A stretch of DNA of 43,336 bases from a virus. A program made the position numbers and the translations under genes. Within the stretch, counting starts at the first letter, position 1. Every line of letters begins with the position of its first letter. The stretch lies in IMG/VR virus record IMGVR_UViG_3300049893_000329, positions 1 through 43,336 of that record; one strand, written 5' to 3'. This document shows positions 6,647-43,336 of this stretch, piece after piece. The notes beneath the pieces are model-generated. The model had not been told where the DNA came from and searched no databases. It was given only the letters and a program-made list of their open reading frames with translations.

Positions 6647-7243
6647 ATGAAACCAACAATTGGTAGAAGACTGTGGTTCTTCATGAGCATAAATCAGGCA
6701 TTAGCGCACGGGTTGTCAAAACTTTCAGAGCAACCATTTGATGCTGGTGTTATTTACGTCAACGAAACTGGAACTGTTAATTTACAAGTCACCGATCATA
6801 TGGGAGCTGTAAGAAACTTTCTTGCAGTACCTATAGTCACAGAGCCAGAAGATCATGGGCATCCTTATTGGGCAGAATGGATGCCGTATCAAAAAGAACA
6901 AGCTGCAAAACAGGAGACTACACCTAAGTTTAACATAGATAGTCAAGCTCAGCAGGCTGCTGCGTGGCTGAAAGTTGTGGGAGTTCTGGATGATATTGCC
7001 CCTAATTGGATGGAATTAGGGCCTATGCCTATGGATGCAGCTTGTGCACAAATACAACAGTTTGCCTACAATGAGGCAAAAAGCAAATCTTTGTTGCATA
7101 ATTTACCACAAACTGCTTTAAGTCCAGTACAACTTAAATTCTTTTTATCTAACTTGGAAACTAAGCCAGGTTGGGGTAAAAATGAATTGAAAGATATGTT
7201 GTTGAATATCATTGTGCAGTCAGATCAACAATTGACTGGCTAA
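6647..7243 (+). CDS. hypothetical protein (198 aa), last gene of the polymerase operon
   Basis: TAGGAA precedes the ATG. The N-terminal half has alternating strands, a Gln/Ala-rich linker lies around residues 85-105, and the C-terminal half is predicted helical. There is no recognised domain. The gene ends 32 bases before the terminator at 7276-7309, so it closes the plus-strand replication operon that begins at 558. A function cannot be assigned. Confidence 0.75.
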   Translation: MKPTIGRRLWFFMSINQALAHGLSKLSEQPFDAGVIYVNETGTVNLQVTDHMGAVRNFLAVPIVTEPEDHGHPYWAEWMPYQKEQAAKQETTPKFNIDSQAQQAAAWLKVVGVLDDIAPNWMELGPMPMDAACAQIQQFAYNEAKSKSLLHNLPQTALSPVQLKFFLSNLETKPGWGKNELKDMLLNIIVQSDQQLTG

Positions 7244-7275
7244 GCAAAAATTTAATTAAAACTTTAAATCTCTCG

Positions 7276-7309
7276 AAGCCCTGCTTGAGGAAACTCTTGC
7301 GGGGTTTTT
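7276..7309 (+). terminator. intrinsic terminator
   Basis: AAGCCCTGC (7276-7284) pairs with GCGGGGTTT (7299-7307), including two G-U pairs. Inside it, GAG and CTC close a GAAA loop. The stem runs into five T residues at 7305-7309. It lies just after the last gene of the polymerase operon. Confidence 0.85.
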
Positions 7310-7312
7310 GGG

Positions 7313-7482
7313 TGCCAGTAACATCCGTTTTAGACGTAACGGCAATGACTCTGGCAAGTGGATGACTGCGCATCGTAACCACTATAATCTAGAAGATAAG
7401 AGACCAGCGTTTGGTATGTCTCAAGCACGGATCGTACCGTGGAGCGGTTGGCTGCAAAGGGGTAATAGCCGGAGCCTTAACC
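7313..7482 (+). ncRNA. candidate structured RNA, five consecutive stem-loops
   Basis: This gene-poor stretch, between the 7276 terminator and the small membrane-protein gene, can form five adjacent hairpins by direct base pairing. SL1 is TGCCAG/CTGGCA (7313-7318 with 7351-7356) enclosing CAT/ATG and CCGTT/AACGG (7325-7329 with 7338-7342). SL2 is AGTGGATG with CATC (7371-7374) and CACT (7380-7383). SL3 is GAGAC/GTCTC (7400-7404 with 7418-7422). SL4 is CACGG/CCGTG (7426-7430 with 7437-7441). SL5 is GGTT/AACC around GGCT/AGCC (7446-7482). I match it to no known RNA family. It could be a small RNA, or a structured leader of the 7530 gene. One frame is also open through it, so an extended coding region is not fully excluded. 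Confidence 0.5.
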
Positions 7483-7529
7483 TACTGCTAAAAACTCTAA
7501 AATTAAATTCTAACTTTGAGGAAATTAAA

Positions 7530-7718
7530 ATGAGCAAATACTTTGTTTACTCAGTAATTTTTATTGTGATTGTTATTGTTATTGGTGTACTAAGTTATGG
7601 ATCAAGATTACTTAATAACAAGGTAACTCCGATAGCAGTGACGGAAGTAGAAAAGGGCATCAAGTGCGCTTCAATGGTTACACAAGATGGCGCAGCTATA
7701 AGCTGTTGGAAAATGTAA
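7530..7718 (+). CDS. small membrane protein (62 aa)
   Basis: I place the start at the ATG at 7530 because GAGGAA lies seven bases upstream; a longer start at 7308 falls inside the preceding terminator. Residues 5-22 are almost purely Ile/Val/Phe and form one transmembrane helix. The rest is a short polar tail with two Cys residues (around 50 and 59) that could lie outside the membrane. It is isolated from the polymerase operon by a terminator and faces the end of the late operon. Possible roles in lysis, spanin-like action or superinfection exclusion are guesses. Confidence 0.65.
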   Translation: MSKYFVYSVIFIVIVIVIGVLSYGSRLLNNKVTPIAVTEVEKGIKCASMVTQDGAAISCWKM

Positions 7719-7736
7719 CGCTGATATTTGCGGTGC

Positions 7737-7754
7737 TAAGACTTCCATGTCTTA
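7737..7754. terminator. hairpin between converging genes, possible bidirectional terminator
   Basis: TAAGAC (7737-7742) and GTCTTA (7749-7754) form a perfect 6-bp stem with a six-base loop. It lies seven bases downstream of the end of the minus-strand late operon and 18 bases after the plus-strand gene. There is no clear T-run on either side, so termination is only suggested by position. Confidence 0.35.
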
Positions 7755-7761
7755 TGAGTTC

Positions 7762-10700
7762 TTAATAGTCCGTATCCCAGGGAGTTAGAGTACTTTGCTT
7801 TAGCTCCATTCTTTTTACTGCCCGTCCTAAGCTACTGTACTTATCCGCAAGTAATTCATCCTGAAATTTATTCATAACTCCATCTCCAGCTTGCTTCAAT
7901 TGTCTTCCCCAGTACGCATTGAAACTCTGAATCTCCCCGCCAGCTCTTTCATACCTCAGTGCAAAGTCTCCCATGTCAGCAGTTGATAACTGGCCTACAG
8001 AATAATCCAACTGCAACTGGCTGGAAATATCGGCAATGTTCTTTTTGTAGTTTGCCTTGTATGCAGCATCCCGGAAATATGCACTCTGAACAATAGTCTC
8101 ATTCAGCGGTCTAGTTCCAATAGCTCTGGCGAACATCGCACCAAAGTTCCAGTCATTAGTAACATTATATCCAACATAGTTGGAATTGATCCAGTTGATT
8201 TGTCCTTCCTTAGTATACACATCTCCCAAGATAATGCTAGCTACACCTTGCAGCGGACGGTTAAGTCCATTGTGTGCCATGCCATGCAGCATTACTTGTT
8301 TAGCTTGGGAAATAGTATCAACTTCTGACAATGCGGAAACAGTCTGACTCAGGTTTTCATAAACTTTAGCTAGTGTCCCAACAATCGGCAAGTCTTGAAA
8401 GGTTGTTGGAATAACTAACATGTTGCGAGCTGACAAACTACCACGAGTTGTGAAGTCAATCGGTGTTCCAAACATGTGACTAGCTAACCCGTACATAGCA
8501 TACTTACTCCAGGATTCTGGATCATCTGCATTTGATACGGAGTACAAGTCTGTATTGTTTCTGTTTGTATTACCAATTGCCTCATTCAAAGTCTGGAATC
8601 CCGGTAAAGATTGAATCCCAAAGATTGAACTCTGCATTGCCAACATAGTTGTAGCTTGCTTTTTATTTCCATCAGCCACAAACTTCAGCATGTTCTGAAC
8701 AAAGTTGAAGAAGTAAGTTTGGTACAATCCAACACTTTGACCCAGAACTCCTTGGAATAATTGTGGCCGTTGCGCACCAGAATAAACTCCGTGAACTTTA
8801 TCTACTGCACCACTGATCAAACTCCAAGCTTCTTCTTTAGGAAGTCCACGAATCTCCGCAATATCTTTAACTGCGTGAGCAACTAAGAATCTACTAAATT
8901 GTTCCGCATAGTTAAATCCAGATACCTTACTTCCGTAGTAAGCTAGCGCCTCGATCTTATCGTTGACTTGCTTCATTGCATGTCTTCCGTTGATCTGACT
9001 GAAGTCTGTGACCTGTAAGTATTGGCTCAGGTGGTCATTGATAATATTTCTAGCCTGCATTTCCTGAATAAATTGCTTACCTTCAGGAGACCAGAAAGCT
9101 CGCACTGCGTTAAACATCAACTTCATGTTGCTGGGTTCATACTGCCCAGTTGCAGGATTCAAGACTGTTGTAGCTTCCTTAAGTCTCAAACCTGCCGGAG
9201 TATCACGTAACGCAAGTTTAGCTTCCTGCAAAACTGGCAATGTCAGAATCGGAGAGCTGATCACAGACAAGATGCTATGGGCAAAGTCAAGTCTCAGCAT
9301 TGTGGTACTAATCAGGTTACTCAGAGTTTTAACTGCACTCGGGAAAATAGAACTTTTAGAAGTATCCGGACTTGCCAACGCAACCTGCATCACGGAGTCA
9401 AAAGGACTTTTATATCCAGCCTCTGCAAGTTTGGCATTGAAGACATTCAAATCTTCCTGAGTAAGTCTGCCGTTTATTCTGGCTTTAGATAATCCAGCCA
9501 GAGTACTCTCCACTAACTTACTGCCTTTCTCTCCAAGGAAATCGTTAACTCTTACCCACATGTTTTCCAGATTAGACCCACGAGCACGAGTGTTCAGCAT
9601 TGTGCTGAGTGTATCTTGCCAAATAGTCGCAGGCTCTCTCCAAGTTTTATCCATGGAGGAAGCTTCAACTTTTCCGAAGAAATCATCCATACGTTTGAGT
9701 CCCTGCACAATTCCATTGTACTTTAGCTCCACTCCGGATTTTAGCAGTCTGTCTTCTTGCTTAATGTGGTATACCCGGTATCTGTCCAGAGTTGCACTGA
9801 AGTTAGTATCCGTGTTCGGCAGCAACTCAGAACTTCTACCTTTATTAAACAGGTTGGAGTCAAATTCAATTTCATCAAATACAGAACCATCAGCATATTC
9901 GCCTAATGCATCTTGGTATTCTTTAGCATCTTTCTTGGTTAGCAGTCGATAATCTGCTCCGTACTTCTGCTCAATGCCAAGACGTTTACTTTCAAACTCC
10001 GCCTCAGTCTCAGCATAAATCATAAATCTTCTAGGATCGGATTCAGCTTTGAATGTTTTAGGAATAACAAATCCTACGTATTTACTTCCACGTAAGTCTC
10101 GGCTAGGCGCGTAAAGAATATTAGGATCACGCGTGGAAGTTTTTCCTTTAGTAATCGCCAAAGATCTTACACGGTCATTCAATGAAAAATTTCTTTTAGC
10201 GTGTACGCTGTAGAACTCTGCAACTTCTGGAGATAGTTTAACTACTCCCGGAGCATAAGCATCATCCACGCCGCGAAGTGCATCCAAGAATTCATCCGGC
10301 AGAGAATTTAAATACTCCACATCGAATTTAACTCCGGCAGCTTTAGCAGCTTCAATAACTTTATCCTTCCGAATGATACTAGGACCATCAGAAGTTTGCG
10401 CTAGATAGTAGTGTTCTCTGCGCAGAATGTTATCAATGTTAGCCAGCTCAAATCTTAAGCCAACATTGTCAGCTCGGTTGAAGATACTAGCATGTTTAGC
10501 AAAAGCCGAATCTACTTCTTGAGCTAAATTCAGACTTTTCTGTCCTACAAGTTTTCCGATGTAGGCAGCTTTTTCCCTCAGAGTATTAAACTCTGCCCGC
10601 AAGTTGTTCAGCAAACCTGCTCTACTGGCAAACGGGCTAATAGTTCCAAGCAGCTCTGTAGGCAGAGTAGGTAAGTTATGGAACAAGTCTCCTGTAAGTT

Positions 10701-25096: not shown

Positions 25097-25743
25097 GGCA
25101 GTATCTCCTGTTTATTTGCGTCAATAAAGTTTTCAAGTTGTTGTTGGTAATAAATTTCAGCCGCATTCATCATCTTAGGATCTGCGACTATGCCAGCAAT
25201 GAATCTTCTGACCATTGATTGAATCACACCGGGGTGCTGCTCCAGAATCCAGGAGTCTGACTCCCACTCTCCCGTAAGGAGATTTCTGCCATAATAAGGC
25301 CTGACTATTCCAGTCACTTCAATGCAGACACAATTTTCCGGAACCTCTCTGAAATTAAGATAGTTCCCTGCAATGTAATAAGTGTTCAGTATTTTATTGG
25401 AATAGTAGTTAAATTGATTTTCACCCTGAGCTTCTGTGTATTCAGGGTTTGAGATAATTTCGGTTCCAGGAGTTACTACAGTGCCTACAACACTATAACT
25501 GGAATACAATTTGACCCCTCGTATAACTCTGATTGCCCTGAATTCCGAGGACATATCAACGGCAACTTTGCCCGAATTTATGCTGGGATTGAGTATGTAC
25601 AGCTTACGTAGGTCTCTACGAAAGATATTTATAGAATGTGCAGTATTCAGGATATTACTGAAATCGTAAGTTAAAATCTTATCCGTCATATCATAGCGGG
25701 CAAGATACGAAGTCTGTGAAGTTACTAAATTTAAAGGAGTCAT
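25090..25743 (-). CDS. tail tubular protein A-like head-tail adaptor (217 aa)
   Basis: Position directly after the capsid block and before the nozzle, plus a size near T7 gp11 (about 196 residues), suggests the adaptor ring that binds the portal. The C-terminal third (QSMVRRFIAGIVADPKMMNA and the YYQQQLENFIDANKQEI segment) has the long helix expected of this family. The middle is beta-rich. No sequence motif is decisive. The ATG lies 17 bases after the upstream stop. Confidence 0.65.
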   Translation of the reverse strand: MTPLNLVTSQTSYLARYDMTDKILTYDFSNILNTAHSINIFRRDLRKLYILNPSINSGKVAVDMSSEFRAIRVIRGVKLYSSYSVVGTVVTPGTEIISNPEYTEAQGENQFNYYSNKILNTYYIAGNYLNFREVPENCVCIEVTGIVRPYYGRNLLTGEWESDSWILEQHPGVIQSMVRRFIAGIVADPKMMNAAEIYYQQQLENFIDANKQEILPW

Positions 25744-25760
25744 ATCTTGCCCGCCTGATA

Positions 25761-26108
25761 TTAATTAACTTTGTTTGGGTCCAAAGGCTCTGGAGCTTGC
25801 ATCTGAGGTGTGAATTCCTCAGCCATCAATGCAGCAGCAGGCCAGATAGTTCCAGCTCTCACCATTGCATCTAACTCCCGGAGTTCATCGGGGTCTTCAG
25901 TTGTGTGAACACCATCAGGCACAACAATACGACGGCCGTCTGGCATAATAAAGTTGGTTGGAGCAGAAGGAAATTGGTAGGACTTACCAGGTTTCTTTGC
26001 TGGAACAATTGCAGTAGTTGGAGTTTCTGCAGTTGCGGCAGCGGCAGCTTTAGCCTGTTCAAGTTTAGCGGCTTCAATTGCTGCTTGCAAGTTGTTTGGA
26101 GTATTCAT
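25761..26108 (-). CDS. hypothetical capsid-region protein (115 aa)
   Basis: The N-terminal 45 residues are Ala/Gln/Lys-rich and helical. The second half has a compact segment, MPDGRRIVVPDGVHTTEDPDELRELDAMV in composition, which resembles small proteins encoded next to major capsid genes. It could be a head-completion or decoration protein. It begins a new section after the minus-strand terminator at 26141-26173; the -10-like bases at 26112-26117 end just ahead of its ATG. Confidence 0.65.
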   Translation of the reverse strand: MNTPNNLQAAIEAAKLEQAKAAAAATAETPTTAIVPAKKPGKSYQFPSAPTNFIMPDGRRIVVPDGVHTTEDPDELRELDAMVRAGTIWPAAALMAEEFTPQMQAPEPLDPNKVN

Positions 26109-43103: not shown

Positions 43104-43336
43104 ATGACTGAAGAAACTCCACAAGTAGAGAACACCGAAGAAACTTCTCAAACAGTGAACACCCCAGGAATTAGCACGACTGGTGAGCCAGACTTCATCT
43201 CCGAAGATACTGCCCGTCAACTTGGTTTGCTGCACAGTCCCGAAGATATGGCACGTTATGCCGAGCATGAAAGTAAGTTGCAGCAGGAAAGAATGTTGGC
43301 TGCGAAAATTGCCTTTACTCAGGGCTTGGATGACTT
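43104..43336 (+). CDS. hypothetical phage protein, 5' part (3' part lies at 1-464)
   Basis: The ATG at 43104 lies 16 bases after the terminator T-run, with GAGG upstream. It encodes MTEETPQVENTEETSQTVN and continues in frame through the junction into the window start, for a total of 173 residues. The first 20 residues are acidic. See the entry at 1-464 for the remainder. Confidence 0.85.
   Translation, partial: MTEETPQVENTEETSQTVNTPGISTTGEPDFISEDTARQLGLLHSPEDMARYAEHESKLQQERMLAAKIAFTQGLDD
43162..43336. repeat. terminal redundancy, copy 2
   Basis: These bases repeat 1-175 with one visible difference, C at 43210 where base 49 is G. See the entry for copy 1. Confidence 0.93.

Follow-up and report, generated by a model that had tools for sequence, protein, structure and literature searches.

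The sequence analyzed here, called the window throughout, is a virus record of 43,336 bases whose positions 1–175 and 43162–43336 form a near-identical 175-bp repeat (99.4%), and because this repeat stands at both ends the window probably represents the complete genome of a phage, the repeat being either terminal or the overlap of a circular sequence. Its gene content includes a PolA-type DNA polymerase, primase, helicase, exonuclease, a Sak4-like protein, terminase, portal, and capsid, and among isolates it is closest to Aeromonas phage P5, Polaromonas phage Tiera, and EBPR podovirus 3, with 31–37% polymerase identity. At 7243–7762 early and replication genes of the plus strand converge with structural genes of the minus strand, and inside this convergence, on the plus strand and oriented like the early/replication operon, lies the RNA element that is the subject of this study. 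An earlier note on this DNA had drawn five adjacent hairpins at 7313–7482, following a terminator and preceding a small membrane-protein gene with its own ribosome binding site, and had proposed a candidate new phage RNA there. Both flanking features were confirmed. The strong intrinsic terminator of the early/replication operon (AAGCCCTGCTTGAGGAAACTCTTGCGGGGTTTTT, plus strand, 7275–7308) lies just upstream and was identified by folding and also by a terminator script; the fold of 7265–7312 amounts to −22.3 kcal/mol, with a long GC-rich stem, a GAAA tetraloop, and then a U tract. The downstream gene (plus strand, 7530–7718) lies outside the RNA, starts at ATG 7530 with its own ribosome binding site, and encodes a small membrane-type protein of 62 aa.

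Comparison of folding energy with shuffled sequence, proposed in the earlier note as a check, did not single out the stretch. The minimum free energy of 7313–7482 was −48 kcal/mol (z −0.51), dinucleotide shuffles giving −46.1 ± 3.8 kcal/mol; a z this low or lower was seen in about 47% of the 170-nt windows across the genome, and the folding energy of the reverse strand was also unremarkable. By folding energy alone the stretch would have been dismissed, and as a test this measure is uninformative; single-sequence folding energy is ordinary and the support for the RNA is comparative, the lesson being that comparison reveals a real RNA that in-genome folding energy can miss. The strongest folding signal of the genome is found on both strands of 25671–25840 (z about −5), near the gap between two minus-strand ORFs (25743/25761).

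Homologues, parts, and covariation of the element

An IMG/VR scan with the exact 16-mer of the P4 hairpin (7426–7441) returned eight contigs. In six of them (L012, L013, L014, L015, L017, and L018) local BLAST extended the similarity far past the 16-mer, while L016 and L019 proved to be chance matches. The element is identical in L012 and L013 and likewise in L015 and L018, and L017 has 91% identity with the window over 57 nt. A pattern in which the stem was left free added L020, and one in which stem and loop were both left free recovered these seven loci again and no others. The 16-mer, the looser patterns, and local BLAST together define a core of six distinct sequences, i.e. the window and five IMG/VR phage lineages. 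Over the segment from TAAG to P5 the window has 76–90% base identity with the other five members, and its helicase has 33–39% amino-acid identity with those of the L012, L015, L017, and L020 phages. A match in Luminiphilus (L039) lay inside a GGDEF gene and was due to chance. BLAST of the window element against phages and plasmids yielded nothing convincing, with a weak match to Vibrio phage 150E35-1; a search via the neighboring proteins found only relatives with about 36% polymerase identity, from which the RNA is absent; scans for close relatives using the overlapping ORF found none; and 369 gammaproteobacterial genomes gave no match in a scan that had no positive control and so carries little weight. 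No description of the RNA was found in a literature search of open-licence papers.

Folding of 7313–7482 returned adjacent hairpins, one of them TGCCAG/CTGGCA with CAT/ATG and CCGTT/AACGG as inner pairs, much as they had been drawn by eye, and comparison with the homologues amended the list. Hairpin 1 (7313–7356, pair probabilities 0.72–0.99) folds as described but is a 5′ domain specific to the window lineage, with no sequence counterpart in the homologues, whose 5′ hairpins differ. The hairpins named here P2, P3, and P4 were among the five, the third of the five (7387–7397) is unpaired in homologues, and the last had been cut short, the conserved helix joining 7443–7447 with 7485–7489 and being followed by a tail at 7490–7499. 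With the hairpins thus corrected and the conserved tail included, the element covers about 190 nt, at about 7313–7502, with a core at about 7357–7499.

All of its parts are on the plus strand. P2 (7357–7383) is a hairpin of AGUGG/CCACU with a palindromic UGCGCA in its loop (7367–7372). Each of the six closest members carries TGCGCA in this position, closed by one of four stems, which are AGUGG/CCACU in the window, UUCCAG/CUGGAA in L012, L017, and L020, UAGCGGUG/CAUCGCUA in L014, and a weak CUAG/CUAG in L015. An A-rich linker without consensus pairs (7384–7399) ends in UAAG, invariant as TAAG in nine members, and leads into P3 (7400–7422, GAGAC/GUCUC), in which all pairs are formed in the nine members, then P4 (7426–7441, CACGG-AUCGUA-CCGUG), compensated in L020 and in Vibrio phage 1.031.O, and then P5 (7443–7489), in which AGCGG (7443–7447) and CUGCU (7485–7489) enclose a variable insert and are paired in six members. 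The conserved 3′ tail AAAAACUCUAAA (7490–7502), also defined by comparison of homologues, contains a motif that is AAAAACTC without variation in six members and GAAAACTCTAAA in Vibrio phage 1.031.O. The most conserved parts are the unpaired ones, namely UAAG before P3, CAAG between P3 and P4, AUCGUA in the P4 loop, and AAAAACUC after P5.

Some further structure is confined to particular members. In L012, L017, and L020 the RNA extends in the 5′ direction as a long stem CUUAUAUAGU..., whose inner part is altered in concert when L012 is compared with the other two. The P5 insert of L012 and L017 holds GGTTCACTG...TTAGAGAA, absent from other members, which resembles the start of type I-F CRISPR repeats, a likeness that is probably due to chance. 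Pairing of the 3′ tail with sequence farther upstream into a closing helix was rejected, as it was strong in the window only, where it would use the U tract of the terminator, and was inconsistent. In the window the end of P5 and the tail, CUAAAAACUCU (7488–7500), can pair with GGGGUUUUUGGG of the terminator (7301–7311) in a duplex of about −12 kcal/mol that was reached in 0 of 300 shuffles and is not seen in other members.

Compensating changes, to which the earlier note had looked for evidence of a real RNA, are present among the homologues in P3, P4, and P5, with no broken pair, and RNAalifold applied to the six sequences found these three helices unguided. All 90 cells of the 15 pairs in the six members hold standard pairs (90/90) and four pairs are changed on both sides; in controls, 0 of 500 shuffles reached the observed values and pairing collapsed when partners were slid. 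Double changes convert GAGAC/GUCUC of P3 into GAGUC/GACUC and into GACAC/GUGUC, CACGG/CCGUG of P4 into CAAGG/CCUUG (L020) and CUAGG/CCUAG (Vibrio phage 1.031.O), and AGCGG/CUGCU of P5 into AGGGG/CUCCU. Across nine members P3 is paired in 45/45 cells, with double changes at three pairs in five cells. The third pair of P5 is C-G, U-G, or G-C, and one G.U pair is fixed in all six members; with this G.U and the change from C-G to U-G, the pairing can form only as RNA of the plus strand. The order UAAG, P3, CUCAA, P4, P5, and AAAA(C/U)UC tail, with its covarying helices, is complete in six members, and there is one copy per record.

Members in Vibrio phages and their tRNA setting

A covariance model was built from the six members with Vibrio sequences excluded, and its E-values are rough. 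The only further match in the scan with this model was 150E35-1 (L021, E 0.011), from which BLAST led to Vibrio phages 1.031.O and Va2. The same model gave 32.7 bits for 1.031.O (E 2.1e-5 for the whole 153-kb record), a phage isolated on V. lentus that has P3, P4, and the tail, and 22.6 bits for Va2 (L054, E 0.005). Two of the Vibrio members score weakly and differ around P4 and P5. Both Va2 and 150E35-1 have GAGAG/CUCUC as P3 and a variant tail, and an insert follows P3, so that the hairpin beyond it is assigned to P4 presumptively.

The Vibrio members lie among tRNA genes, and such neighbors were found by ARAGORN in these phages only, with none in the window or the IMG/VR homologues. In 1.031.O tRNA-Gly and tRNA-Met are located upstream of the RNA on the same strand, the model match ends ...CUC at 1843, UAAA continues to 1847, and tRNA-Thr starts at 1848; because the RNA directly adjoins the tRNA-Thr gene, its 3′ end is probably made by RNase P. 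Two tRNAs directly follow the RNA in Va2. One call there, at 1629–1703 directly after the RNA, is a tRNA with anticodon TTA that would read the stop codon UAA, possibly a suppressor tRNA or a misfolded call. In 150E35-1 the 3′ half of a tRNA (2840–2876) precedes the RNA, at the site of the complete tRNA-Met of the related 1.031.O, and just before it is a 223-aa ORF of unassigned family.

Alternative explanations and known RNAs

Conserved sequence and three covarying helices link nine distinct sequences from phages that belong to different groups, and from this comparison the element is probably an independent, trans-acting phage RNA rather than a leader of the next gene. The earlier note had admitted either, and the lack of a shared kind of downstream gene favors the former. 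A cis-acting structured leader of the membrane-protein gene at 7530–7718, whether riboswitch-like, an attenuator, or a translational control, would account for the position of the element, after a terminator and about 30 nt ahead of a gene that has its own ribosome binding site, and a short gene follows the RNA in several members, but these genes are unrelated, encoding 62 aa of membrane type in the window, 60 aa in L014, 109 aa in L015, and 84 aa in L012, L017, and L020. The 84-aa proteins are related to one another, and the 62-aa protein has no relative at any homologous locus. Moreover, the next feature in the Vibrio phages is a tRNA, which is untranslated, and the core showed neither an alternative terminator nor pairing against the RBS, so that a leader seems unlikely. 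A function at the level of DNA, as a replication origin, primer site, or protein-binding palindrome, is suggested by the location of the element among replication genes in podoviruses and by the hairpins and palindromes that are also typical of origins; in L012, L015, L017, and L020 its neighborhood includes the helicase and exonuclease genes, and in the window and L014 it occupies another place. Nevertheless, the U-G and fixed G.U pairs of P5 exist only in plus-strand RNA, the strand is constant relative to transcription, always that of neighboring early genes or tRNAs, and the element sits inside a tRNA array in the Vibrio phages, all of which makes a DNA element highly improbable. The chance that the stretch codes for protein, the reading that the earlier note had set against its own, is close to nil. 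The plus-strand frame at 7308–7718 is open for 136 codons, and the 73 codons before ATG 7530 stay open in only about 1.6% of shuffles, yet its codon score is within the range of wrong-frame open stretches and no protein match was found for this frame in phages, Pfam, NCBIfam, or PDB. Homologues differ by many nucleotides in P5 and by 1 nt in the P3 loop, which has 12 or 13 nt depending on the member and so shifts the reading frame in the most conserved part; coding fails on these frame-breaking indels and on the unrelated downstream genes.

The independent RNA might also be a very diverged member of a known family such as GOLLD, ROOL, tmRNA, or another in Rfam, which we regard as improbable, somewhat more so than a leader. 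The first reading had recognized no known family, and the Rfam 15 covariance search agreed, with no match to a catalogued RNA. At gathering thresholds nothing was found in the window and the IMG/VR homologues, and 150E35-1 had tRNAs only; at permissive thresholds the window, L017, Va2, and 1.031.O gave only chance or tRNA-related matches. Apart from the tRNAs themselves, the Vibrio loci had no Rfam match either. The packaging RNA (pRNA) of phi29 type is a small phage RNA that multimerizes by loop contacts; it belongs to another phage group, the window having a PolA-type DNA polymerase, and there was no Rfam match. Like tmRNA, a stable RNA, the new RNA has a tRNA connection, adjoining tRNA genes in Vibrio phages, but an acceptor/T-arm and tag frame were not found in the window, the homologues, or the Vibrio loci with ARAGORN and Rfam, and ARAGORN called no tmRNA in any of these. 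Membership in a known family is favored by the placement of the RNA inside tRNA clusters in Vibrio phages, a setting described for ROOL and GOLLD (PMC12286853). GOLLD, found in phages and prophages and often beside tRNA islands, is a structured non-coding RNA (PMC12286853), and the new RNA shares with it the property of being a structured phage RNA and, in the Vibrio members only, the tRNA setting. However, GOLLD exceeds 800 nt in many members and is unlike the new RNA in sequence and structure, and its covariance model gave no match. ROOL, a structured RNA that phages encode near tRNA islands and that self-assembles by RNA–RNA contacts (PMC12286853), is about 600 nt or more, and its model also failed to match; in contrast to ROOL multimers, self-assembly here is suggested by one palindromic UGCGCA loop, in six members. 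The core of the new RNA, 77–143 nt, is far shorter than either. Given the lack of an Rfam 15 match and the setting shared with GOLLD and ROOL, it is called a new family among structured phage RNAs, like these two in setting and not in sequence or size, and the candidate of the earlier note is supported by homologues with covarying helices.

Proposed role and significance

An independent RNA of this kind would be transcribed with the early genes and cut out of a longer transcript, with RNase P at the adjoining tRNA forming the 3′ end in Vibrio phages. It would then fold into the P2 hairpin, a P3-P4-P5 cluster, and a free A-rich tail, and may bind a host or phage partner in trans early in infection. 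The palindrome UGCGCA in the P2 loop suggests that the RNA may self-associate through kissing loops, as do other ornate phage RNAs. The Vibrio members lack this loop, so that dimerization through it would not be family-wide, if these are true members. Any single function is proposed with much less confidence than the independence of the RNA. It is a tentative possibility that these sequences, from podoviruses, L014 (another phage type), and Vibrio phages of 128–161 kb, are the first known representatives of a new phage RNA class, unrelated to described RNAs, that acts at an early step of host takeover, possibly as a multimer joined by the UGCGCA loop.

Structured phage RNAs without an assigned job, such as GOLLD and ROOL, pose an unsolved problem, and only a few of those known are small; the new family combines a small core of about 80–145 nt with strong conservation across distant phages. 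Since its carriers include isolated Vibrio phages whose hosts can be grown in culture, direct tests are feasible of how it is expressed and processed, of its partners, and of whether it is needed.
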